A stretch of 64,000 bases of DNA from Planctomycetota bacterium (GTDB lineage: Bacteria; Planctomycetota; GCA-002687715). The stretch is taken from contig NYSS01000005.1 in NCBI GenBank assembly GCA_002683135.1, positions 104,834-168,833 of the forward strand. Direction: 5' to 3'. Positions within the stretch are counted from its first letter, which is position 1, and each line of letters starts with the position of its first letter. The notes under the pieces were generated by a model, which was not told the DNA's origin, searched no databases, and saw only the letters and a list, made by a program, of their open reading frames with translations. The position numbers were made by a program, and so were the translations under genes. Shown piece after piece: positions 45,725 to 59,717 of this stretch.

Positions 45725-45789
45725 TTGATCTTCGGCGCTTCGATTTCTTCGAAGCGGGTCACGAGCGGGACGACGACCGTCTTTGTCAC
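45721..45789 (-). CDS. Possible 22-aa translationally coupled small ORF (VTKTVVVPLVTRFEEIEAPKIN)
   Basis: GTG start overlaps the TGA stop of the upstream CPBP gene; stop CTAG shared with purM on opposite strand. Confidence 0.2.
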   Translation of the reverse strand: MTKTVVVPLVTRFEEIEAPKIN

Positions 45790-46676
45790 GACCCCACCTC
45801 TCGCTTCGCGGCCCGTACCCTGAGCCACCATATAAGAGCCAACGTGAACAAGAGCGCGGCCCAGCCCAGCAGCCCGTCGTACAGCCGCTTTGTTCCCAGT
45901 AGCCAGAGGTCCTCGTTGATGCGCTCGTCCACGTCTTCGAGCGTCTTGTTGGAGGTGAAGCGGACCCAGACCCAGCCAGCGTGGACGCCCATGGCGAGGA
46001 AGATCGTCCGGCGGCCTTCTCGCACGATGGCGAGGATGAGTCCGACGAGCAGAAGGCCCACCACCTCTCGCCAGCGCAGGGTGAACATCTCGCCGAGCCC
46101 CGCGAAGCACGCGGGCATTGTGTCCCACCACGCCTCCGGCGGGCGGCTCTTCGGTGGGCGCAGGAAGTGGGACACGGCGAAGATGGTGCTGCCGAGGATG
46201 ATCGCGACGGTGGGGCCGAATGTGGCGCGCAGCCGACCGTGCAACAAACCGCGGAACAGGGACTCCTCGAGCAGAGCGAGGGCGAGGGCCTGCAGCAGGT
46301 ACAGGACGGTCTTCAGCAACAGCATGGCCGGCCCCATCTCGGGCTCGATCAGCCGCGCTCCGAGGAGCAGCAGGACGCCGTTCAGGATGACGAGGCTGAG
46401 GACGCCGCAAAGGAGTCCGCCGGCGATGTCCCGCACGGGCTGTCGGCCACCAGCCAGCCCGAGCACCTTTGTGAGTCCGGACCGCGGCACGCGGGCGACG
46501 AGGAGCCAGCAGATGACCACCAGTGGGACCAGGCCCTTGCGGCCGATCCGATCCGGCTCCTGGGCCCCGGCGATGGCGGCGATTCCCGCGATTAAGGTCA
46601 CGGCCGCGCTGGCCAACGTCAGGGCCAAAAAGAGTCGAAATAGCTCCCGAAGGGGATTTAGTGGGGTTTTGGGCAC
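45786..46676 (-). CDS. CPBP (CAAX-like) family intramembrane metalloprotease
   Basis: ALALLEESLFRGLLHGRL (EExxxR), TIFAVSHF, multiple TM segments. Confidence 0.85.
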   Translation of the reverse strand: MPKTPLNPLRELFRLFLALTLASAAVTLIAGIAAIAGAQEPDRIGRKGLVPLVVICWLLVARVPRSGLTKVLGLAGGRQPVRDIAGGLLCGVLSLVILNGVLLLLGARLIEPEMGPAMLLLKTVLYLLQALALALLEESLFRGLLHGRLRATFGPTVAIILGSTIFAVSHFLRPPKSRPPEAWWDTMPACFAGLGEMFTLRWREVVGLLLVGLILAIVREGRRTIFLAMGVHAGWVWVRFTSNKTLEDVDERINEDLWLLGTKRLYDGLLGWAALLFTLALIWWLRVRAAKREVGS

Positions 46677-48068: not shown

Positions 48069-48527
48069 ATGAACGAGGACACCGTCACCAGATTCACGCC
48101 ACCCCGGCCGAAGGGCGACGGCAAGGCGCTCCTGGTCGTGATCGAGGGGGCCGCATGCGGGCAGACCCTGGCGCTCGAGGATGGCGAGGTGACGCTCGGG
48201 CGCCGCCCCGACAACGACCTGGTCCTCGCGTCTCCCGCCATCAGCAAGTACCACGCCCGTGTCTGCGCCCGCGGGGATCAGTTCTCCATAGAAGACCTCG
48301 AGTCCACCAACGGCTCGATCGTCAACCAGGTCCGCCTCAAGCCTCACCAGGTTCGTCGTCTCTACCACGGTGACGTGGTCAACCTCGGCGACCACACGAT
48401 CATGTTTCGCTATGAGAACGGCGGCTTCGCGGACAAGACCGGCATGTCGACCATCTCTTTCGATATGTCGGAGGTGCGGGAGGAGGCAGAGAAGCTGCTC
48501 GGCGGCTGGATGAGGTCGGGGAAGTAG
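48069..48527 (+). CDS. FHA domain protein
   Basis: LEDGEVTLGRRPDNDLVLASPAISKYHARVCARGDQFSIEDLESTNGSIVNQ. Confidence 0.94.
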   Translation: MNEDTVTRFTPPRPKGDGKALLVVIEGAACGQTLALEDGEVTLGRRPDNDLVLASPAISKYHARVCARGDQFSIEDLESTNGSIVNQVRLKPHQVRRLYHGDVVNLGDHTIMFRYENGGFADKTGMSTISFDMSEVREEAEKLLGGWMRSGK

Positions 48528-48542
48528 TTGGCGACGGGCCCC

Positions 48543-49256
48543 TCAGGCGACGATCGCCGTGAGCAGGCCGATCAGTCCCCCGAAGACGCCTCCCCAGACG
48601 ACCAGCCAGCCCAGGTGGGCGCGGATCATGTCTTGAACGATGCGCTTCACGTCATCGGGGGTGAGCTCCTCGAGGCGCCCAGCGACGATCTTGTCCACCT
48701 TTGCGGTGATGGACTCAGCCACATCGTGTCCGCCGATGTTCTGCGTGACCGCGTCGCGGAAGCCCTCTGACGTGGCGATGTCTTCCACGACGTCCCTGAG
48801 GACCGCCTCCACCGGATCTTGCATCGCAGACAGAGCGGACTTGCCGCCGAACATCCCGAGCATGGACCCGAGCCGCGACTCCATCACCGCGTCCGAGATC
48901 TTGTCGAACACGCGGTCGTAATCGACCGCCTCCTTCAGCGCGTTCGGATCAATGGACCCGATGCCCGCGGCCGATTCCGACGCGAGCAGGCGTTCCACGT
49001 TTTCCGTGGTGAAGAACTGCTCCATGATCAGCTCGTGGATCGCGCTCTTGAACTCCTCGAACCGGGTAGGGATGACCCCGGACCCGTATAGCAGCGGCAC
49101 CTTCTCGAACAGCATGTACACCGCCAGCCAGTTGGTGATCGCGCCGGACAGCGCGAACAGGCCGGTGAACAGCACAGGTTCACGCCACACGGGCGTCACC
49201 AAGCCCGCGGTGACCAGGGCCGCGGCGGCGAGATTCGTAAGGAGAGATTTGTTCAT
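48543..49256 (-). CDS. DUF445 family membrane protein
   Basis: GLFALSGAITNWLAVYMLFEKVPLLYGSGVIPTRFEEFK. Confidence 0.85.
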   Translation of the reverse strand: MNKSLLTNLAAAALVTAGLVTPVWREPVLFTGLFALSGAITNWLAVYMLFEKVPLLYGSGVIPTRFEEFKSAIHELIMEQFFTTENVERLLASESAAGIGSIDPNALKEAVDYDRVFDKISDAVMESRLGSMLGMFGGKSALSAMQDPVEAVLRDVVEDIATSEGFRDAVTQNIGGHDVAESITAKVDKIVAGRLEELTPDDVKRIVQDMIRAHLGWLVVWGGVFGGLIGLLTAIVA

Positions 49257-50239
49257 CGCACGCCGAACGCCAAGGCGAGCTTGGCGTTCTGTAGGGTGTC
49301 GGACAGGACCTCGCGCGCGCGCAGGTAGTTGCGTTCGACGCGGGAAAAATCGAACAGCGCGGGATCGTCGATCCTCGGGTTCAAGATGAGCAGGTCGACG
49401 TTTGGTGTCTCACGCACTTCGCGAATCTGATATTCCCACGCGAGGTTCTCCAGGGCGTTGATGGAGACGAGGAATCGCATCAGGAACCCACTGGCCGCGG
49501 ATGGGCGCGGGTCATTGCCGAAGTGGGTGCCGATCAGGATCAACTTCTTGTCGGGGTGACGACGGTTGTGCTCGGCGATGGGTGAGATGAGCGGGGTCTT
49601 CTCGACCAGTCCGCCATCGTAAAATCCGGTCTCTTCGCCGTCGTGTTGCCTCGGAATGACGATCCCGGGGATGCTCATGGACTGGAAGATCGCCGACAGC
49701 AGCGGCCCGCGGCGAAAGACCTTGCGCATGCAGCGGCCGTCGTCGGTGCAGGCGATGCAGCGGAAGGGCCGCGGGCAATCCTCGAACGTCTTGGCGGTGA
49801 GCGCGTTGTCGATGGCCCGGGCGAAGTACTCCCCACGGATGAGCCCGTTCGGGAGCTTGTGCCCAAACGGCTTCAGGAGGAGGGCGATGGCGAGCCGAGC
49901 CCAGGGGACATCGACCGATCCCTTGCGATTCAAGGACGCGACCGACTCGTAGACGCGGTCGATGGGCGTCCCGCTTGCCCAGGGCCCACCGATGGCGGCG
50001 CCGGCGCTCGTGCCCCAGACCTCGTCGACGTGGGCGTCGATGCCGAGCTCTTCCAGGATCTTGCCGAACGCCAGGTTGCCGCAAAGGCCGGGCACCGAAC
50101 CGCCCCCGAATGACGCGACGATGCGGTGCTGGGGGGCGGCGACGAGTCGCATGAGCGCCGTGTATCGCTCCGGGTCGAGCGGCGCCAGGATCTGCTCCTT
50201 GCGTTCCAGGACATCGGCGCTGTTGTGGGGATGGGTCAC
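49253..50239 (-). CDS. Patatin-like phospholipase
   Basis: SFGGGSVPGLCGNLAFGKILEELG, VWGTSAGAAIG (GxSxG), YDGGLVEKTPL; GTG start. Confidence 0.9.
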   Translation of the reverse strand: MTHPHNSADVLERKEQILAPLDPERYTALMRLVAAPQHRIVASFGGGSVPGLCGNLAFGKILEELGIDAHVDEVWGTSAGAAIGGPWASGTPIDRVYESVASLNRKGSVDVPWARLAIALLLKPFGHKLPNGLIRGEYFARAIDNALTAKTFEDCPRPFRCIACTDDGRCMRKVFRRGPLLSAIFQSMSIPGIVIPRQHDGEETGFYDGGLVEKTPLISPIAEHNRRHPDKKLILIGTHFGNDPRPSAASGFLMRFLVSINALENLAWEYQIREVRETPNVDLLILNPRIDDPALFDFSRVERNYLRAREVLSDTLQNAKLALAFGVR

Positions 50240-51168
50240 GTCGCGGCCCCGCTCAGATCGGGTGGGTCGGCGAACGCGGTGTCGGGCTCGACGATGATCT
50301 CGGTTTCGAACGTTCGCACCGCTGGTCCTGCTTCCTGCGGGGCTCCCCGGAGCCACGATTCAAGCCGGTGCAGCAGCGCGTCACGTGGGAGGGTGGAGGG
50401 GATCACGTGCGGCGCCCCCAGGAATGTCTCGATCCACCTCGGCTCTCCGCTCCCGCTCTCGACCACCCTCCGCACGCCAGCGTTGTCGATGACCTGGTCG
50501 TCCTCTGCGAGCATGCAATACGTGGGGACCTTTATCCGCCAGAACTGCCGTGACGTGAATCGCTGGCACCTGAACATGGAGGTGAGGAACCTGGCGGAGA
50601 CCCGTCGTGTCCGCAATGCGTCGCCCTCGAGGGCTGTTCGCCAGTCGTCCCGGTTCACGATTTCCTTGGGGCCGAACGGCAAATCGTAGAGCTTGGTCGG
50701 GTTTGTAAACGACCTGCGCAGCACGCGCAGCCGCCGCGCGAGCGGGACGTTGACGGTCGACGCGAACGCGGGCGCCGGCAGGATCAGGGTGTCGCAGAGG
50801 TCGGGGTGACGGATGGCCAAGGCGGCAGCGAAAACGCCGCCAAGGGATAGACCAATGATGCCCAGGGGCGCCCCGGGGTGCCGCCCGCGGACCTCTTCGC
50901 AGACGCGCCGCACATCATCCACGAGGATCGACCAGTCTTCGGCGTGGCCGCGCTCACCGCCGGAGATCCCACACCCACGTCGGTCGGGGAGGTAGGCCGA
51001 AATACCCCGCGCCTGCAAAGCCCGCGCGACGCCGTCGTACCAGCCCATGTGGCTGGCGATGCCGTGAACGACCACGACGGCCGGCCCGTCCGCGTTCGCC
51101 GCAGGGCGCGCCCCGACGGCCAGCTCGACGCCATCGCGCGCCAGGATCCGGATCACCTCGCCGTCCAT
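50236..51168 (-). CDS. Alpha/beta hydrolase (monoacylglycerol lipase-like), paralogue of 54003..54860
   Basis: VVVVHGIASHMGWYDGVARAL, LPDRRGCGISGG, IIGLSLGGVFAAA. Confidence 0.9.
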   Translation of the reverse strand: MDGEVIRILARDGVELAVGARPAANADGPAVVVVHGIASHMGWYDGVARALQARGISAYLPDRRGCGISGGERGHAEDWSILVDDVRRVCEEVRGRHPGAPLGIIGLSLGGVFAAALAIRHPDLCDTLILPAPAFASTVNVPLARRLRVLRRSFTNPTKLYDLPFGPKEIVNRDDWRTALEGDALRTRRVSARFLTSMFRCQRFTSRQFWRIKVPTYCMLAEDDQVIDNAGVRRVVESGSGEPRWIETFLGAPHVIPSTLPRDALLHRLESWLRGAPQEAGPAVRTFETEIIVEPDTAFADPPDLSGAAT

Positions 51169-51169
51169 G

Positions 51170-52867
51170 TCAGTCGAGGGACGTGATGTCTTCGAGCCAG
51201 TCATCCTTGTCGAGGTCCTTCTTGGTCGACAGGAGCACGGTCTTGGCCTGGAAGAGCCGCTTGCCCGATGCGACCAGCTTCTTTTTTTCGGCGTCGTACC
51301 AGCCGGTCTTCATGGAGTGCAGCAACGGAGAGTTCAGGCGGAGGCTCTTACGCTTTGCTTCGTATTCGAGGTTGAGATCGGACAGGTGCCGGTCGATTGC
51401 CCCAAGGAACGAGCGCCGTTTGTCGGGCGGTAGCCCCGCCGCGGACTCTACCTTGAATACGTATCGCGCTGTGTCGACATCAGCCTCCGCCTTGAAGTGG
51501 TCGACGGCGATGGCGAACTCCTTCGAGGCCCGCTCGACGGCGTCGATGACCTGATTGACGCTGACCTTCTCGCCAGTGATCGACGTCATGCCCCTTCCCT
51601 TGCGGCGGAACACGACGACGGGGGCGGAGTTGTACCACCCGATGACCTCGATGACGTCATTGATGTCGTACCGGTACAGGCCGCCGGTGGTCGTGAAGAA
51701 GATGTAGTACTCCTGGCCTTCTTTGATCTGGTTTACGGAGAGGAAGTTCCAGACCTCACGGTCGTCGGGGTTGGCCTCCAGGTCGTCTACGGCGACGAAC
51801 TCGTATACGTTCGTCGCGACCGTGAGGACGCCGCCCGACCCGTCGTCGCTGAGGGGGATGCTGCCGCGGGCTTCGGACGACAGGTAGCCCCAGTCGCGGA
51901 CCGGGACGCCCTTGCGGCCATCCGGGTCAAACCAACCGGGGAACCGGTCCACGTACGCGCCCACGGTGCCACCCTTCCAGCAACCGATGAGATCGAGGCC
52001 CGGCCAGTAGTCTGCGGGCAGGAGCATCCCCGCGCGCCGCTCGCGAGCCCGCTCGAGTCGCTTTGCGCGCTCTGGGTCACGCCGCATGCGTGGCTGGAGG
52101 AGGGCTCGCAGTTCCGGCGGGATGGAGAGCTTCGGGTTCAGGGTGCCGTCGTGCAGGTCCTTCAGCAGCACGTCGGCATTGTCGTTCGCGATCTCGCACA
52201 TCTTGATGATCGACGACGGGTTGGCCGTCGCGAGGAACGAGACATCCGCGCCGATGCCGAGGCGCATGATGATGTAGTACTTGGCCTCGTAGTCCTCGAG
52301 CTCGAAGACCTCGTACGGCACCAGATAGGTGCTGCGGACGAGCCCGGGCATGTTCTTGTAGATGTGGCCGCTGGTCGATCCGTAGGGGACGCCAGAGGGT
52401 GCGTAGCCTTCAATCGCCGGCGACACGAGGCTCAGGACCTTGCCGCTGAAGATGCGGGGGTGTGCCACCGCCGCGTGATGAAACCACGTGCGCATCTGGT
52501 CGCTGTGGTCGCGCCCCTGGCATGTCCGTGTGAGGGGGACGTATTTCGCGTCACCGGTGGTGCCGGACGTACGCGCGAACATCACGGGGTCTTCAGCCGT
52601 CAGGACGTTCGATTCACCTCGCGTGACGCGGTCCACGCGGTCCTTGATATCTTCGTAGGTGATGACCGGCACGGCGTTCTGCCAGTCCTCCAGGCTACGG
52701 ATCGACCGGAAGCCGAACTCCCTTCCGTATTCCGTGTCCTGGTTGCGCTGGACAATGTCCATCAGCTTGCGCAGCTGGGTGTCCACGGCGTCCCTGGTCG
52801 CGGCCTCGAAGCGCTTCGCGGCCGAGCGTCCGACGGTCTTGATGACAACCGATGCGATGAAACCCAT
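51170..52867 (-). CDS. GH3 family acyl-adenylating enzyme
   Basis: DTEYGREFGFRSIRSLEDWQNAVPVITYEDIKDRVDRVTRGESNVLTAEDPVMFARTSGTTGDAKYVPLT; YYIFFTTTGGLYRYDINDVIEVIG. Confidence 0.9.
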   Translation of the reverse strand: MGFIASVVIKTVGRSAAKRFEAATRDAVDTQLRKLMDIVQRNQDTEYGREFGFRSIRSLEDWQNAVPVITYEDIKDRVDRVTRGESNVLTAEDPVMFARTSGTTGDAKYVPLTRTCQGRDHSDQMRTWFHHAAVAHPRIFSGKVLSLVSPAIEGYAPSGVPYGSTSGHIYKNMPGLVRSTYLVPYEVFELEDYEAKYYIIMRLGIGADVSFLATANPSSIIKMCEIANDNADVLLKDLHDGTLNPKLSIPPELRALLQPRMRRDPERAKRLERARERRAGMLLPADYWPGLDLIGCWKGGTVGAYVDRFPGWFDPDGRKGVPVRDWGYLSSEARGSIPLSDDGSGGVLTVATNVYEFVAVDDLEANPDDREVWNFLSVNQIKEGQEYYIFFTTTGGLYRYDINDVIEVIGWYNSAPVVVFRRKGRGMTSITGEKVSVNQVIDAVERASKEFAIAVDHFKAEADVDTARYVFKVESAAGLPPDKRRSFLGAIDRHLSDLNLEYEAKRKSLRLNSPLLHSMKTGWYDAEKKKLVASGKRLFQAKTVLLSTKKDLDKDDWLEDITSLD

Positions 52868-54006
52868 CAGGGCTCTCTCATCTCGAGGGTGCTAACGACC
52901 ATGGGAGCAAGCTTCTCCGTGTCGACGTCGACGCCGAGCCCCGGCCCATCCAGGGCGCGCGCGCAGGCCCGCGGACGGAGGGTGAGGTCCTGCTTGCCAA
53001 TATCTGTCGCGAGGAGGATCGTACCGAACGAGCCCTCGGCGAACAGCAGTCCCTCTGTCCTGGATGCGAACAGGTTGCCTGCGGCCGAGAGGAGCACGGT
53101 TTCACCTACCTGCGCGCCCAACTGGCAGCCGAGGCCAGCGTCGTGGGCGGCGTCTCTCAGCCGTCGCGAGTTGACGATGCCACCGCACTTGGAGATGCGG
53201 ATGTTGAAGTGATGACAGGCCCGCCGCTCAATGAGCGTCCTCGCGTCGTCGAGGGAGGCAAGAGACTCGTCGACGATGACCGGGATAGGCGATCGCGCGG
53301 TCAACTGGACGAGCCCCTCGATGTCGTCGCCCGCCAGCGGTTGCTCGACGGCTTCGATGCCGAGGTCCGTGAAGTCCTCGATGCGGCGCAGGGCCTGCTC
53401 CCAGGTCCACGCACAGTTCGCGTCTATTCGGAGACGGCAGTCGGGACCTAGGATGTCGCGCGCATGGCGGAGGAGGGCCTCGTCCTCCGCGTCGTCGGCG
53501 CCGACCTTGACCTTCACTTGCCCGAACCCGAAGTCACGGATGAGCTCGATGATCTTCAGGGAGGTCTCGGCGCCGTCCGCCGACACCACGCCGCTGTAGG
53601 CGATCTCGTCTCTGACTCGCGGACCGAAGACGCTCCCTGCGGAGCGACCGAAGGCTCTCCCAGCTGCGTCGAGGATGGCGAGCTCGAGAGCGCAGTGGGC
53701 GGCGTGCTGGTCGCGGGGCAGCCCGACGAGCCCGGTTTCTATGTGTGCAACCGCGTCTTCGAAGCTCGCCAGCTCGAGTCCGAGCCACGGAAGAGCCAGA
53801 GACCCATGGATAGCTTGCTTGACCGAGTCCGGAGTCTCGCCGGTCACGTAGCTGCGTGGGACGCACTCTCCGTATCCGACGTTCCCGCCGTCGTCGGTTA
53901 CGCGGACGAGGATGCCGTGACCCTCGCTGCGCGCAGCGAGGGAATGGCGAAAGGTGAATCGAAACGGGATCTTCGTCTCGAGAATTTCAAGCCGGGTGAT
54001 CCTCAC
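52867..54006 (-). CDS. Enolase-superfamily enzyme (muconate-lactonising/dipeptide-epimerase-like)
   Basis: VKVKVG, LRIDANCAWTWEQAL, GIEAVEQPL, PVIVDESLASLDD, NIRISKCGGI; GTG start with GTGA overlap. Confidence 0.9.
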   Translation of the reverse strand: MRITRLEILETKIPFRFTFRHSLAARSEGHGILVRVTDDGGNVGYGECVPRSYVTGETPDSVKQAIHGSLALPWLGLELASFEDAVAHIETGLVGLPRDQHAAHCALELAILDAAGRAFGRSAGSVFGPRVRDEIAYSGVVSADGAETSLKIIELIRDFGFGQVKVKVGADDAEDEALLRHARDILGPDCRLRIDANCAWTWEQALRRIEDFTDLGIEAVEQPLAGDDIEGLVQLTARSPIPVIVDESLASLDDARTLIERRACHHFNIRISKCGGIVNSRRLRDAAHDAGLGCQLGAQVGETVLLSAAGNLFASRTEGLLFAEGSFGTILLATDIGKQDLTLRPRACARALDGPGLGVDVDTEKLAPMVVSTLEMREP

Positions 54007-54860
54007 GGGCGCTCCCTGTCGTCCAGGAATTTGACGATGTCCCCTACCATTCGGTCGACCTGATCGAACTGGATCGAGTGAGTCGCATCGTCGTACATCC
54101 GCGTCACCAGGCGTTCTTCGGGCAATGGAGACAGCATGTTCAGTACGCCGGCATTGTCGATGATTCGTTCTCCACCCGCCAGAAAGAGCAGCACGGGCAC
54201 GTCGAGATCGCGCATCCCCCGCTTGAGGATCTTGTCCAGCTTGAGGCTCGCAAGGAAGAACCTGGCGGTCGCGTGTCGGAGCCTCCAGGTGTCATTCTCG
54301 ATGAACTCGAGATAGCGGTTCGTCTCCGTGAACATGTCGGATGAGATGGGGATCGGTATCTTGGCCCGACCTCCAAACGGCAGGCTCGCGAGGAGCCTCA
54401 ACTTCTGTCCGATTGTCAGGTCGACGATGGCCTTGAGGCCGGGAGTGATGAGGATCAGGCTCTTGACGCCCCCCGGACTCGCGATGGCGGAGGCCGTCGC
54501 GAGTTTGCCGCCCCAGGACAATCCGACGAGATGCAGGCTTGGATCGCCGACGTGGCGGCGAAAAGCCCCGATGTCTCTCAGCAGGACGCCTTCTGTTCGC
54601 GCGTCGCCGGGAGCATGGCTGCGGTTGAGCCCCGACCCGCGCCGATCCAACAGCCACGTCGTAATCCCCCGCTGGGCGAGGCGCTCGGCGGCGGGCAAGA
54701 ACCAGGTCCCGTGGCTCTCGATCCCGTGGCAATAGAGGAGGTGGTGCCGTGGGGCGTCCGCCTCGACGGCCCGATAACGCAGGGTCAGCCCGTCCGCGCC
54801 CTCGAAGTTCTCGATCCGCCCGGGGTGGTCGGCTCCCGGCGGGAGGAGGGCATCAATCAC
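54003..54860 (-). CDS. Alpha/beta hydrolase (lysophospholipase-like)
   Basis: HHLLYCHGIESHGTWFLPAAERLAQRGITTWLLDRRGSG, LVGLSWGGKLATA; GTG start overlapping upstream stop by 8 nt. Confidence 0.88.
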   Translation of the reverse strand: MIDALLPPGADHPGRIENFEGADGLTLRYRAVEADAPRHHLLYCHGIESHGTWFLPAAERLAQRGITTWLLDRRGSGLNRSHAPGDARTEGVLLRDIGAFRRHVGDPSLHLVGLSWGGKLATASAIASPGGVKSLILITPGLKAIVDLTIGQKLRLLASLPFGGRAKIPIPISSDMFTETNRYLEFIENDTWRLRHATARFFLASLKLDKILKRGMRDLDVPVLLFLAGGERIIDNAGVLNMLSPLPEERLVTRMYDDATHSIQFDQVDRMVGDIVKFLDDRERP

Positions 54861-55656
54861 CGCTGTCGTCGCCTTCCGAAGTCAGGGCGATGAGGCGCGC
54901 GGCGATGCTGCGCAGTTCATGGGTGATTTGGTGCTCGGGGTTGAGCTTGGTGAACAGCCCGCGGCTCCCGAGGTTGGCCATCTCCTCGTCCAACGGCAAG
55001 ACGCCCAAGACCTCGTATCCGAAAGCCTCGGTGATCTTTGCCTTCACGTCGTCGTGGTCGATTCGGCTGACGACCTTGTTCGCGACCATGGCTACGTTGG
55101 GCACCCCCAGTCGTCCGGCGACCTCCACCATGACCGCGGTGCCGTGAAAGTCCTGTTTGTCGGGCCGGATGAGCAGGACAAGCACGTCAGAGATCGCCGT
55201 CGTGAGCATGGTCTCCCGATTTAATCCCGGGTGGGTGTCGATCAGGAGTAGGTCGAGCCCGAGGGCATGGTTGAGGGCGTTGAACTCCGTGTGCAGCTTG
55301 CCCACGTCGTAGCCATCGTCGAGGACTCTCATGATGTCCTCGATCCGCATGCTCGAGGGGAGCAGCCACACCTCGCCGTCGCCCTCGCCGTCGCCCTCGC
55401 CGTCGAGCCCGAGGTCCGACGACATCTGGTAAGCGCACTCCTCGAGTTCACACTTGTTCTGTACGAAGTCGGTCAGCGTATGGGTGATCCGGTCCTTCTC
55501 CATCCCGAACACGACATGCACACCGGGCGATTGCAGGTCGGTGTCGAGGACGGCGACGCGCTTGCCTTCGAGCGCGGCGAGGTACGCGAGGTTCGCCGTG
55601 ATGTTGCTCTTGCCGGTGCCGCCGCGATACGAGTGGATGCTGACGATGGTCGCCAT
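54853..55656 (-). CDS. ParA/MinD-like P-loop ATPase
   Basis: IVSIHSYRGGTGKSNITANLAYLAALEGKRVAVLDTDLQSPGVHVVFG deviant Walker A; LLLIDTHPGLNRETML. Confidence 0.9.
   Translation of the reverse strand: MATIVSIHSYRGGTGKSNITANLAYLAALEGKRVAVLDTDLQSPGVHVVFGMEKDRITHTLTDFVQNKCELEECAYQMSSDLGLDGEGDGEGDGEVWLLPSSMRIEDIMRVLDDGYDVGKLHTEFNALNHALGLDLLLIDTHPGLNRETMLTTAISDVLVLLIRPDKQDFHGTAVMVEVAGRLGVPNVAMVANKVVSRIDHDDVKAKITEAFGYEVLGVLPLDEEMANLGSRGLFTKLNPEHQITHELRSIAARLIALTSEGDDSGD
55371..55406. repeat. 12-bp tandem repeat (3 copies of cctcgccgtcgc) inside ParA-like gene, encoding GEGD repeats
   Basis: Direct reading 55371-55382, 55383-55394, 55395-55406 (last base differs). Confidence 0.8.
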
Positions 55657-55665
55657 GACCACGGC

Positions 55666-55671
55666 AGTATA
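55666..55671 (-). promoter_or_regulatory. Putative -10 element (TATACT) of ParA-like operon
   Basis: AGTATA on + strand, 9 nt upstream of ATG; no good -35 seen. Confidence 0.4.
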
Positions 55672-55693: not shown

Positions 55694-57223
55694 TTAGGGG
55701 TGGCCGGGCGTCACGCGCTTGATGAGCGCGTCCGAACTCAGGTCAAGCCCGGTGGTCTTGCTGACATGTTCAGTCCAGGACCGTCCGCCGGCATGGCGAA
55801 TGAGGAGGTCTTTCAGCGCCGCGGACCCCTCCCGATGTCGCAGGATGTCAGATCCCGCCGGGTTCGAAGGGAGGGCGTCCCTGATCTGCGCGGCGATCAT
55901 GGCGCCTATGGTGCGTTCGATGCCTGCGCCCGTCGGGCCGAGCACCTCTGGGGCGATTGCCCAGACGGCGTGCCCGCCTTCGTCGCGCGGGTCGATTCTG
56001 AGCGACTGCTTGAGCAGGCCCCACCAAAGAGTGGTGAGGTCTTGCCCAGGGTTCGCGTATAGGGCTTTCTCGAATCTCACCGTCGCGAGCCCGTGGTGCA
56101 CCAGCAGCAAGGTCTCGCGCCGGTGACGTTCGAGGAAACGCTCGCGGAGTTTTGCTGCGGCCGTGGGTTTGAGGCCCATCGCGTCCTCGAGCACGTCTGG
56201 TGAGGCGATCTCCTCGACCAAGATGTACCACAGAGCCCAGGACATGACGGGATGAGGTGACGACCGCAGGGTCTCCGGAAGCTCCGGGTCCGCGTGAGCT
56301 TCGAAGAGCGCCTCTGCGGCTTTGACGAGAACGCGGCCCACGTCGACGAGGGTTGACCACGGGTCGGGTTTGGGGCTGCGGCCCGTAACTTCTGCAGGGC
56401 GGATCTTGTCCGCGGCGAGCGAGAGTCCGCGGTGGCGCAGGAAGGCGAGCGCGGCGCTGACGGCTTCGCGGCGCGGCGGCAGGTTGGTCTCGAGATCCCA
56501 CGATGGCAGCAGTCGCATCGGATGCGGATAGTGCCAGGGCCCCATGAACCCGCGTCGTGTCCCGAACCAATCCGCGAGGTTCTTATCCAGGCTGTCCTTC
56601 AGTCCACCGAAGAGCTTGTGTGTGTGTTTGGCGGCGTCTCGGAGCAGGTCCTCTACAGGAGCCGTGTCCAGCTCCCGCAATGCAAGGGCGAGCTCGAAGT
56701 GGCTGTCGAATCCCTGTGCGCGAGCGGCCCGGTTGCGCGATGCGACGACCTCAAGCAGGGCCGGCGCGAGATGGTCGGCCAGATCCACCAGCTTGGACCA
56801 CGCTTCGCGGCGGACGCGCACGTCGTCACACCCGACGAACATGGGCCAGATGTCATCCCACCCGAGAGGGCCAGAACCCAGGTCGCAACGGAAGTTCTGG
56901 ATCTCCATGCGGACCTCGCCTTCCAGCGCCGCAGTCGCCTCGTCTAGACGCGGTTCACACTGGTGAGCGAGGTAGAGTCGGTAGAGTCGCTGCGCCTGAC
57001 GCCGCTGCGTGGGGGACATGTCGACGTTTGCCCGGGAGTACGTCCGGATGCGGCTGAAGGCGTCGCGATCGGACAGCACCCGCCGCATGCTCTCGGATGT
57101 CCCGTTAACAGGCGGGTGTTCCGGCAGGAGGTTGCTGCGCCTGAGGGTTGTCCCCATTGCGTTGCCGAAGGCATCAACGCGGCTCTCGTGCTGAATAATG
57201 AAGTCTGCGAGTTGCTCTCGCAT
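55694..57223 (-). CDS. M2/M3 peptidase-like helical protein apparently lacking HExxH
   Basis: REAWSKLVDLADHLAPALLEVVASRNRAARAQGFDSHFELALALRELD resembles M2/M3 metallopeptidase helices; no HExxH anywhere in the ORF. Confidence 0.65.
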   Translation of the reverse strand: MREQLADFIIQHESRVDAFGNAMGTTLRRSNLLPEHPPVNGTSESMRRVLSDRDAFSRIRTYSRANVDMSPTQRRQAQRLYRLYLAHQCEPRLDEATAALEGEVRMEIQNFRCDLGSGPLGWDDIWPMFVGCDDVRVRREAWSKLVDLADHLAPALLEVVASRNRAARAQGFDSHFELALALRELDTAPVEDLLRDAAKHTHKLFGGLKDSLDKNLADWFGTRRGFMGPWHYPHPMRLLPSWDLETNLPPRREAVSAALAFLRHRGLSLAADKIRPAEVTGRSPKPDPWSTLVDVGRVLVKAAEALFEAHADPELPETLRSSPHPVMSWALWYILVEEIASPDVLEDAMGLKPTAAAKLRERFLERHRRETLLLVHHGLATVRFEKALYANPGQDLTTLWWGLLKQSLRIDPRDEGGHAVWAIAPEVLGPTGAGIERTIGAMIAAQIRDALPSNPAGSDILRHREGSAALKDLLIRHAGGRSWTEHVSKTTGLDLSSDALIKRVTPGHP

Positions 57224-57227
57224 CCCA

Positions 57228-57296
57228 ATTCCCCCAAACGACCTACTCCCTGGCACTCCTCTGATCGGCGAACTTGATGAGGGTCCTTGGGGGAAT
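57228..57296 (-). promoter_or_regulatory. Candidate structured 5' UTR sequestering the RBS of 55694..57223
   Basis: Perfect 10-bp inverted repeat ATTCCCCCAA (57228-57237)/TTGGGGGAAT (57287-57296), G-rich arm 4 nt upstream of ATG; inner GACC/GGTC helix. Confidence 0.55.
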
Positions 57297-57306
57297 CTCG
57301 GCCGCA

Positions 57307-57327
57307 TTGCGGACAAAATAGCCGCAA
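57307..57327. repeat. Inverted repeat TTGCGG-N9-CCGCAA, possible operator
   Basis: Direct reading: TTGCGGACAAAATAGCCGCAA. Confidence 0.45.
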
Positions 57328-58050: not shown

Positions 58051-58881
58051 TTAGGAATCGAACAAGGCGCGGTACTCGGGCACGACATCTGCGCAGAACG
58101 TGTTCATGCCCTCAACCGTCTTCGGATGGTCGACGATGTCGCGGATGACGGCGAACGGAATTGTCGCGACGTCCGCGCCGACGAGCGCGCACTCACGCAC
58201 CTGTCTCGGGTTGCGGAGTGAGGCGGCGAGCACTTCGCAATCGAAGTCGAACGTCTGGAAAATATCGACGCATTGTTCGACCAGGTGAACACCGGAGTGG
58301 ACTCCGTTGTCATCAATCCTCGGCGCACCGTCACTGTTACGCAGTCCCTCCGCGGGGAAGTACTCCGTCTTGTCGAAGGCTCCGCCCATGTTCTTACGCA
58401 ACAGGTCATCGATGCGTCCGGCGAATGGAGATACGAAGGCGGCCCCCGCCTTCGCCGCCGCCCACGCTTGCTCGGCCGTGAATATCAACGTGCAATTGAT
58501 CGGGATACCGGCGGAGCTCAACGTCCGTATGGCCTTTAGCCCGTCGTAACGGTGATCGCTGTTTGCCTCCAAGCTCGGGCTGATGGGGATCTTCACCACC
58601 ACATTGCTCGCGACCTTGTTGAACGTGTCGTAGAGGTAGCGACCCTCAGAAGTCATCTCTCTTTCCGAGGTGCCGATCACCTCGAGACTCACCGGCGCGT
58701 CGCCGGCGGTTTCGAGAATCTGGCAGAGGTAGTCGTGCATGGAGATGTTCTCTCCCGACGCCTTGACTTTCTCGTATGCCTTCTTGATCAGCGACGGATT
58801 GGTTGTGATGCCGTCGACGATGCCCCAGGAAAAAGCTTCTTGGATCTGACCGATGTCCGCCGAGTCGATGAAGATCTTCAT
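58051..58881 (-). CDS. Transaldolase / fructose-6-phosphate aldolase family
   Basis: MKIFIDSADIGQIQEAFSWGIVDGITTNPSLIKK, VVVKIPIS, NCTLIFTAEQAWAAAKAGAAFVSPFAGRIDD. Confidence 0.95.
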   Translation of the reverse strand: MKIFIDSADIGQIQEAFSWGIVDGITTNPSLIKKAYEKVKASGENISMHDYLCQILETAGDAPVSLEVIGTSEREMTSEGRYLYDTFNKVASNVVVKIPISPSLEANSDHRYDGLKAIRTLSSAGIPINCTLIFTAEQAWAAAKAGAAFVSPFAGRIDDLLRKNMGGAFDKTEYFPAEGLRNSDGAPRIDDNGVHSGVHLVEQCVDIFQTFDFDCEVLAASLRNPRQVRECALVGADVATIPFAVIRDIVDHPKTVEGMNTFCADVVPEYRALFDS

Positions 58882-58991
58882 TGGTTGGTTCTCTCGGTGC
58901 GCATTGTAGATCAGGGAGCGCGCCGCACCATGGCGGGGCGTTGTGGAGAAGCTGTTGAATAAGGATAGCGGCCGGGTGCCGGGTGCCGGGC

Positions 58992-59717
58992 TCACTCGAT
59001 GCGCACGACCACGGATGGCTCAAGCCTCGATAGGAGCGCCTGTTTCGCCGCCGCGACGACCTCCGCGTCCTTGCACTCGAGGGTTATCTCGGTCTCGTGA
59101 TCGACGGGAGCGAATACCGGGTAGGAGCCTATATCGACGGAGGGGAACGCGGCGTCGACGGCCTGGAGGTCCGCGGCGATCGCGGCCTCGTCAATCCCGA
59201 GGTAGATGCGGCAAAGCACAAACGGAGATGCGCGGAACCGTTCGCGGATAGCGCGCCACTTCTTTTCGACGAGCTCGGGGGACCCGGGCAGGGCGAGGAC
59301 GTTGCGAATGTAGGTGGCCGGCCACGGGAGGCCCTCGGCCCACAGTAGCTCCGTTCCCTCAGGGAGCTTCGTCATCCGCAGGTGGGCATCGGTGATCCGC
59401 TCGCCGACGTGTTCGCGGATGACGCGCTCGAGAGCAGGCTCGGGACGGAGGGGGAGATCGAAGGCGCGGGCGATGCCCTCGAACGTGACGTCATCGAGGG
59501 TCGGGCCAATGCCGCCGCAGGTGATGACGTGGGCGAACCGGTCAGCGTATCTACGGACCGTTTCCCCGATGACGTCCACTTCGTCCGGGATCGTAGCGAC
59601 GCGCTTGACCGGAACCCCCAACTCTCGCAACTCGCGGATGAGAAATGGGCTGTTTCGATCCTGCACCTTCCCGGAGAGGATCTCGTTGCCGATGACGACG
59701 ATGGCCGCCGCGTTCAT
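58992..59717 (-). CDS. Molybdopterin-binding (MoaB/CinA N-terminal-like) protein
   Basis: AAIVVIGNEILSGKVQDRNSPFLIRELRELGVPVKRVATIPDE, ITCGGIGPTLDDVT. Confidence 0.92.
   Translation of the reverse strand: MNAAAIVVIGNEILSGKVQDRNSPFLIRELRELGVPVKRVATIPDEVDVIGETVRRYADRFAHVITCGGIGPTLDDVTFEGIARAFDLPLRPEPALERVIREHVGERITDAHLRMTKLPEGTELLWAEGLPWPATYIRNVLALPGSPELVEKKWRAIRERFRASPFVLCRIYLGIDEAAIAADLQAVDAAFPSVDIGSYPVFAPVDHETEITLECKDAEVVAAAKQALLSRLEPSVVVRIE

Follow-up and report, generated by a model that had tools for sequence, protein, structure and literature searches.

A conserved Planctomycetota operon pairs a GH3 synthetase with an enolase-superfamily enzyme and may encode an aminolipid pathway

We analyzed a 64,000-nucleotide stretch of a Planctomycetota bacterium genome (GenBank assembly GCA_002683135.1, contig NYSS01000005.1, positions 104,834 to 168,833 of the forward strand), here called the window, whose own numbering is used below. 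It carries a seven-gene operon encoding a ParA/MinD-like ATPase (ParA), two alpha/beta hydrolases (ABH_a and ABH_b), an enolase-superfamily enzyme (ENO), a GH3 acyl-adenylate/amide synthetase, a patatin-like phospholipase (PAT), and a DUF445 membrane protein. Comparison with a set of 392 Planctomycetota genomes shows that the cluster is real, conserved, and functionally linked. The GH3-hydrolase half resembles a pathway published in 2025, and the enolase is a new, phylum-wide partner of one type of GH3. The operon may well make an aminolipid, with N-acylation by GH3, epimerization by the enolase, and the hydrolases and patatin moving or supplying acyl chains.

RESULTS

The enolase accompanies one type of GH3 across the phylum

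GH3 is present in 113 of the 392 genomes and the ENO family in 40 (E ≤ 1e-70), which span 13 families. All 40 ENO genomes also encode GH3 (Fisher p of about 7e-25, uncorrected for relatedness), and the two genes lie no more than 4 kb apart in 13 genomes of 10 families; in other genomes, among them most of those in family f26, both genes are present but not adjacent. The link is not absolute in the GH3-to-enolase direction, since 12 genomes have a strong GH3 match and no enolase detected at E ≤ 1e-60.

The reference point for bacterial GH3 enzymes is the ornithine lipid pathway of Singulisphaera acidiphila, described in 2025, in which the GH3 enzyme OlsH joins a free fatty acid to ornithine using ATP and Mg and the alpha/beta hydrolase OlsI attaches a second acyl chain (PMC12493201). 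In a maximum-likelihood GH3 tree, the OlsH-like sequences form one clade with 100/100 support, ten sequences from genomes without an enolase form a second clade, and nearly all other GH3s come from enolase-bearing genomes. The enolase thus tracks one part of the GH3 tree and not the OlsH clade. The same division is visible within family f7, where genome G015 has an enolase and the enolase-type GH3 while in G046, which lacks an enolase, the GH3 is of the other type, and within the single genome G376, which carries an OlsH above cutoff (888 bits) plus a separate enolase-linked GH3 that scores 49 bits against the OlsH model. The GH3-enolase link is far stronger than could be known to an earlier note on this stretch, which was made from the sequence alone.

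Seven tightly coupled genes form the operon

All seven open reading frames (ORFs) are arranged in tandem on the minus strand between 48543 and 55662, and every Pfam family exceeds its curated cutoff, bearing out the families named in the earlier note. ParA (54853-55656 from its ATG; CbiA, PF01656, 61.4 bits) is followed by ABH_a, which is monoglyceride-lipase-like (54003-54860; PF12146, 96 bits), and by ENO, a member of the muconate-lactonizing enzyme (MLE) subgroup and candidate N-acyl amino acid racemase/epimerase (52867-54006; MR_MLE_C, 145 bits). GH3 comes next (51170-52867; PF03321, 244.5 bits; GH3_M, 61 bits; GH3_C, 48.6 bits), then ABH_b, a candidate OlsI-like O-acyltransferase or lipase (50236-51168; PF12146, 152 bits), PAT (49253-50239; PF01734, 67 bits), and a short form of DUF445 (48543-49256; PF04286, 70.9 bits against a cutoff of 33.8). 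An alternative ParA start is a GTG at 55662, upstream of the ATG, and so the previously proposed span of 48543 to 55671 is right at its lower end and slightly too long at its upper end.

All but one of the six junctions overlap, by 8 nt at ParA/ABH_a, 4 nt at ABH_a/ENO (GTGA), 1 nt at ENO/GH3 (TGATG, where ATGA had been read), and 4 nt at both ABH_b/PAT (GTGA) and PAT/DUF445 (ATGA). GH3 and ABH_b are separated by a 1-nt gap. The tight coupling seen by the earlier note therefore holds, although its claim that every junction overlaps does not.

The gene order recurs in three families

A single scan of genome contigs yielded only two close relatives. The complete order ParA-ABH_a-ENO-GH3-ABH_b-PAT is present in four other genomes (G002, G003, G029, and G139), and a fifth (G192) retains the portion of the six-gene core that its short contig can hold, so that the core is found in the window and five other genomes from three families altogether; in two of the five (G029 and G192) the operon reaches the contig end. 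Such recurrence across three families is more than chance. Of the 392 genomes, 6 have this patatin subfamily and 5 have ParA (E ≤ 1e-140), each time inside the operon. Within the lineage of the window, 10 genomes have ABH_b next to GH3. Four reduced relatives (G001, G005, G007, and G011) keep just GH3 and ABH_b. The earlier note had staked its idea of a single system on conservation or co-occurrence beyond close relatives, and both are found, as the three-family core and the GH3-enolase link.

DUF445 is less constant. It follows PAT in the window and in G003, or two of six operons in two genera, and no DUF445-like gene was found in G002. In G139 the gene for a forkhead-associated (FHA) domain protein directly meets the patatin gene, leaving no room for DUF445, and the G029 and G192 contigs stop before any DUF445 position. 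The membrane partner proposed in the earlier note is accordingly present in two operons, with two others on contigs that end too soon.

ENO is a candidate N-acyl amino acid racemase or epimerase

ENO has the hallmarks of the MLE subgroup, namely the KxK motif on strand 2, the D/E/D metal ligands, and a lysine on strand 6, and these residues (K165, K167, D195, E221, D246, and K273) are invariant in 31 aligned homologs. The top Protein Data Bank (PDB) match of its AlphaFold (AF2) model, which has a predicted local distance difference test (pLDDT) score of 93.7, is 2p88, the N-succinyl-Arg/Lys racemase of Bacillus cereus, with a template modeling (TM) score of 0.90. An Ala-Glu epimerase, muconate enzymes, and N-acylamino acid racemases follow with similar scores, and a profile search likewise places 2p88 first. 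ENO shares with 2p88 and the N-acylamino acid racemases the fold, the lysine pair, and the metal ligands, but it is only 27% identical to 2p88, sits in a GH3 and lipid context, and differs in its capping loop, where H21, R26, R51, and Y53 are invariant. Given this difference, ENO does not simply share the substrate of 2p88, and because the substrate-side residues are family specific, the headgroup may be other than a basic amino acid.

Enolase-superfamily enzymes abstract a proton alpha to a carboxylate. The product of GH3 would carry just such a proton, making racemization of an N-acyl amino acid the simplest chemistry that the two enzymes could share, and on the strength of this model and its matches ENO is a candidate racemase or epimerase of N-acyl amino acids.

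Other assignments within the superfamily fit less well. Assignment as a dipeptide epimerase was rejected: those enzymes carry DxD where the eighth strand ends, and at this place the B. subtilis enzyme reads D-F-D and the ENO family reads E-G-S. The acyl-dipeptide once suggested as a product finds no support. ENO scores 162.6 bits against the muconate cycloisomerase model (TIGR02534; cutoff, 334.95) and 99.5 bits against the o-succinylbenzoate synthase (MenC) model (cutoff, 200.65), and MenD is above cutoff in 1 of the 40 ENO genomes.

GH3 and its hydrolase neighbors differ from OlsH and OlsI

The window GH3 has the N-terminal, middle, and C-terminal domains of its family and intact nucleotide-binding motifs (TSGTTGDAK at residues 100 to 108, YLSSE at 328 to 332, and GLYRYDIND at 396 to 404), matches plant GH3 structures at E = 1.5e-29, and retains the serine known to be essential in OlsH. 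It thus resembles the OlsH/OlsI pathway in these motifs, in being encoded together with an alpha/beta hydrolase, and in its planctomycete host. However, it belongs to a different clade and reaches 105 bits against the OlsH equivalog model (NF052613; cutoff, 620), while ABH_a reaches 18.8 bits against the OlsI model (NF052614; cutoff, 385) and ABH_b does not match it. The operon also lacks the OlsG methyltransferase and adds an enolase, a patatin, ParA, and sometimes DUF445. Plain OlsH/OlsI membership is therefore ruled out by the model scores, the tree, and the presence of both GH3 types in G376. Another candidate, the pathway to the stieleriacine N-acyl tyrosines of planctomycetes, was also rejected, as the paper on it mentions NasY along with an adenylyltransferase/cyclase and a nitroreductase but neither a GH3 nor an enolase. 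The earlier note had recognized no described system in this gene combination, and the whole was indeed not found in the literature searched; for the GH3-hydrolase half, the 2025 pathway is a precedent.

The two hydrolases are paralogous, as had been proposed (29% identity; both PF12146), and their catalytic motifs are intact, with a GLSWGG nucleophile elbow and a conserved His261 in ABH_a and a GLSLGG motif in ABH_b. Their nearest PDB entries are the human and M. tuberculosis monoglyceride lipases (profile E of about 1e-41 to 1e-39), which they resemble in the profile match and the catalytic Ser and His; unlike these lipases, they are operonic with GH3 and an enolase and may be acyltransferases. 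In about 1 Mb of neighborhoods, all 23 hits of the hydrolase profile are no more than 3 kb from GH3 or ENO and nearly all are adjacent, a clustering that is partly circular because 11 of the 23 went into building the profile. PAT is a patatin-like phospholipase with the GGG oxyanion hole, GTSAG, and the DGG dyad.

Fatty acid genes surround GH3 relatives

In G086, a fatty acid hydroxylase domain is fused to GH3 in one 849-aa ORF (L043:9315-11864), which is followed by ENO. In G064, a cassette of FabA-FabG-acyl carrier protein-FabA-ketosynthase-ketosynthase, with FabA-like dehydratases, runs into GH3, and ENO and ABH_a lie downstream. The G064 genes and the G086 fusion point to synthesis. A polyketide synthase (PKS) with ketoreductase (KR), dehydratase, and AAT domains, a phosphopantetheinyl transferase, and a short-chain dehydrogenase/reductase (SDR) lie beside GH3 in G320, and G215 has a similar PKS and SDR. 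The many antisense shadow ORFs produced by neighbor-ORF clustering were ignored. Together with the OlsH/OlsI precedent, the fatty acid genes around or fused to GH3 relatives lend good support to the acyl-amide product envisaged in the earlier note.

Some further observations concern these loci. A large PKS (KR, tandem dehydratase, and penicillin acyltransferase-like AAT domains) adjoins a second GH3 paralog at L127:142-5157 and L130:124-7110. In G015 (L045:8231-12724), an LCM-type methyltransferase and a heme-oxygenase-like iron enzyme flank GH3 and the enolase in a tight run. G086 is the sole enolase genome with MenD above cutoff, and it has no match to MqnC, an enzyme of the futalosine route.

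ParA, the FHA protein, and other neighbors

ParA reads RGGTGKS (residues 11 to 17) where the deviant Walker A motif of ParA/MinD ATPases is KGGxxK[ST], with R in place of the signature K, and its minD_arch score of 82 bits is below cutoff. Its closest relatives outside the operon (46 to 47% identity) were examined at five loci; each has an adjacent glutaminase gene, and four also have an FHA gene there. Such conserved FHA-ParA-glutaminase modules were seen in distant Planctomycetota (L181, L182, L184, and L185; no FHA gene was detected at L183). The window likewise has an FHA gene nearby, at 48069-48527 on the plus strand (FHA, 71.7 bits), and this gene, which encodes a probable ParA partner, converges on the far end of the operon in the window, G003, and G139. 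Unlike those modules, the window operon has no glutaminase, and its ParA heads a lipid operon. Because its kin lie in such modules, ParA more probably serves as a regulatory addition than in the core chemistry, and in the window's lineage the lipid operon may have acquired it together with the FHA protein as a regulatory pair. ParA itself is conserved in the operon; the earlier note had suggested localization or regulation as its role. The AF2 model of DUF445 (pLDDT, 54) was too poor for a fold search.

Upstream of ParA on the same strand, an ORF for a 540-aa protein (55694-57316) ends 31 to 37 nt from the ParA start, so the transcript may start further upstream and this is a possible first gene of the operon. 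The protein has no match in Pfam, NCBIfam, or the PDB (E ≤ 1), and copies are found upstream of ParA in G003 (49% identical) and G002 (26%). Nearby genes include one for a transaldolase (58051-58995), whose counterpart in two of the reduced relatives, G001 and G005 (L039 and L040), is directly next to GH3, and one for a CPBP (Rce1-like) membrane protease on the same strand as the operon (45786-46676).

DISCUSSION

In the aminolipid pathway that we propose, GH3 would use ATP to adenylate a free fatty acid and then link the acyl group to an amino acid through its alpha-amine, in the manner of OlsH. ENO, which would require a free carboxylate beside an acidic alpha C-H, would then epimerize the N-acyl amino acid through its K165/K167 and K273 faces. 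One hydrolase, most likely ABH_b, which directly follows GH3, would add a second acyl chain to the lyso-lipid, as OlsI does, or remove it. GH3 would receive its fatty acids from membrane lipids, through release by the patatin and by the remaining monoglyceride-lipase-like hydrolase. DUF445 would anchor or assist the system at the membrane, while its regulation or positioning would fall to the MinD-like ATPase together with the FHA protein.

Several observations weigh against this pathway. ENO is almost as close to the muconate cycloisomerases (TM, 0.86 to 0.89) as to 2p88, and its invariant H21, R26, R51, and Y53 are not in 2p88 as printed. GH3 and ABH_b occur without a linked enolase in the four reduced relatives. 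Judged by sequence, the two alpha/beta hydrolases could be either hydrolases or acyltransferases. The pathway also leaves unexplained why, in several lineages, the hydrolase adjoining the enolase carries a fused ketopantoate-reductase-type domain (PanE/ApbA): such fusions lie directly beside the enolase in G062 (L118:3472-5313) and G240 (L147:2822-4684), and a reductase-type ORF takes the same position in G309 (L140:2776-3633). A keto or hydroxy acid may therefore be involved.

The GH3-hydrolase pairing is that of Singulisphaera, and the four relatives that keep GH3 and ABH_b alone would suit an ordinary ornithine lipid pathway, OlsH and OlsI under other names, with the enolase and patatin as accessories devoid of any stereochemical role. 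The model scores of GH3 and ABH_a, the separate and fully supported GH3 clade, and the two GH3 types of G376 speak against this explanation, and we consider it unlikely. Slightly less probable still is lipid breakdown or remodeling, in which the patatin and lipases would free acyl chains, GH3 would store or detoxify them as amides, and the enolase would racemize these for a stereospecific amidase; the monoglyceride-lipase-like hydrolases and the patatin do have intact catalytic residues, but the operon has no amidase, and the fatty acid synthesis genes leading into GH3 in G064 and the hydroxylase-GH3 fusion in G086 argue for the opposite direction.

The reductase-type fusions and ORF, together with capping-loop residues absent from known racemases as printed, could instead mean that ENO acts on a hydroxy acid, a lactone, or a cycloisomerase substrate and is tied to GH3 by a shared acyl chain. 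We regard this as improbable, given that the two-lysine MLE site and the best fold match point to N-acyl amino acid racemases and that an N-acyl amino acid is what GH3 itself would produce. An enolase, a hydrolase, and an adenylating enzyme are also the three kinds of enzyme represented by MenC, MenH, and MenE, and ENO has some similarity to MenC, but a role in making menaquinone or a related quinone is largely refuted and hardly credible: MenD is nearly absent from the enolase genomes, whereas MqnC is above cutoff in 26 of the 40 and within about 40 bits under it in three more, the window's genome included.

The aminolipid pathway would have consequences for both enzyme families. Bacteria commonly encode GH3 enzymes, and the ornithine lipid pathway is the one bacterial GH3 pathway that we found worked out in the literature searched. 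A second phylum-wide GH3 type, coupled to one uncharacterized enolase, gives each family a concrete, testable partner. We know of no handedness-flipping step among known pathways of this kind, and N-acyl amino acid racemase activity is often called physiologically orphan. We tentatively suggest, as something possible rather than probable, that Planctomycetota harbor a widespread undescribed pathway in which N-acyl L-amino acids made by GH3 are inverted by a dedicated enolase-superfamily racemase to give membrane lipids with D-amino-acid headgroups. If the enolase is an N-acyl amino acid racemase, the orphan activity would gain a natural role, and D-amino-acid membrane lipids would be implied.

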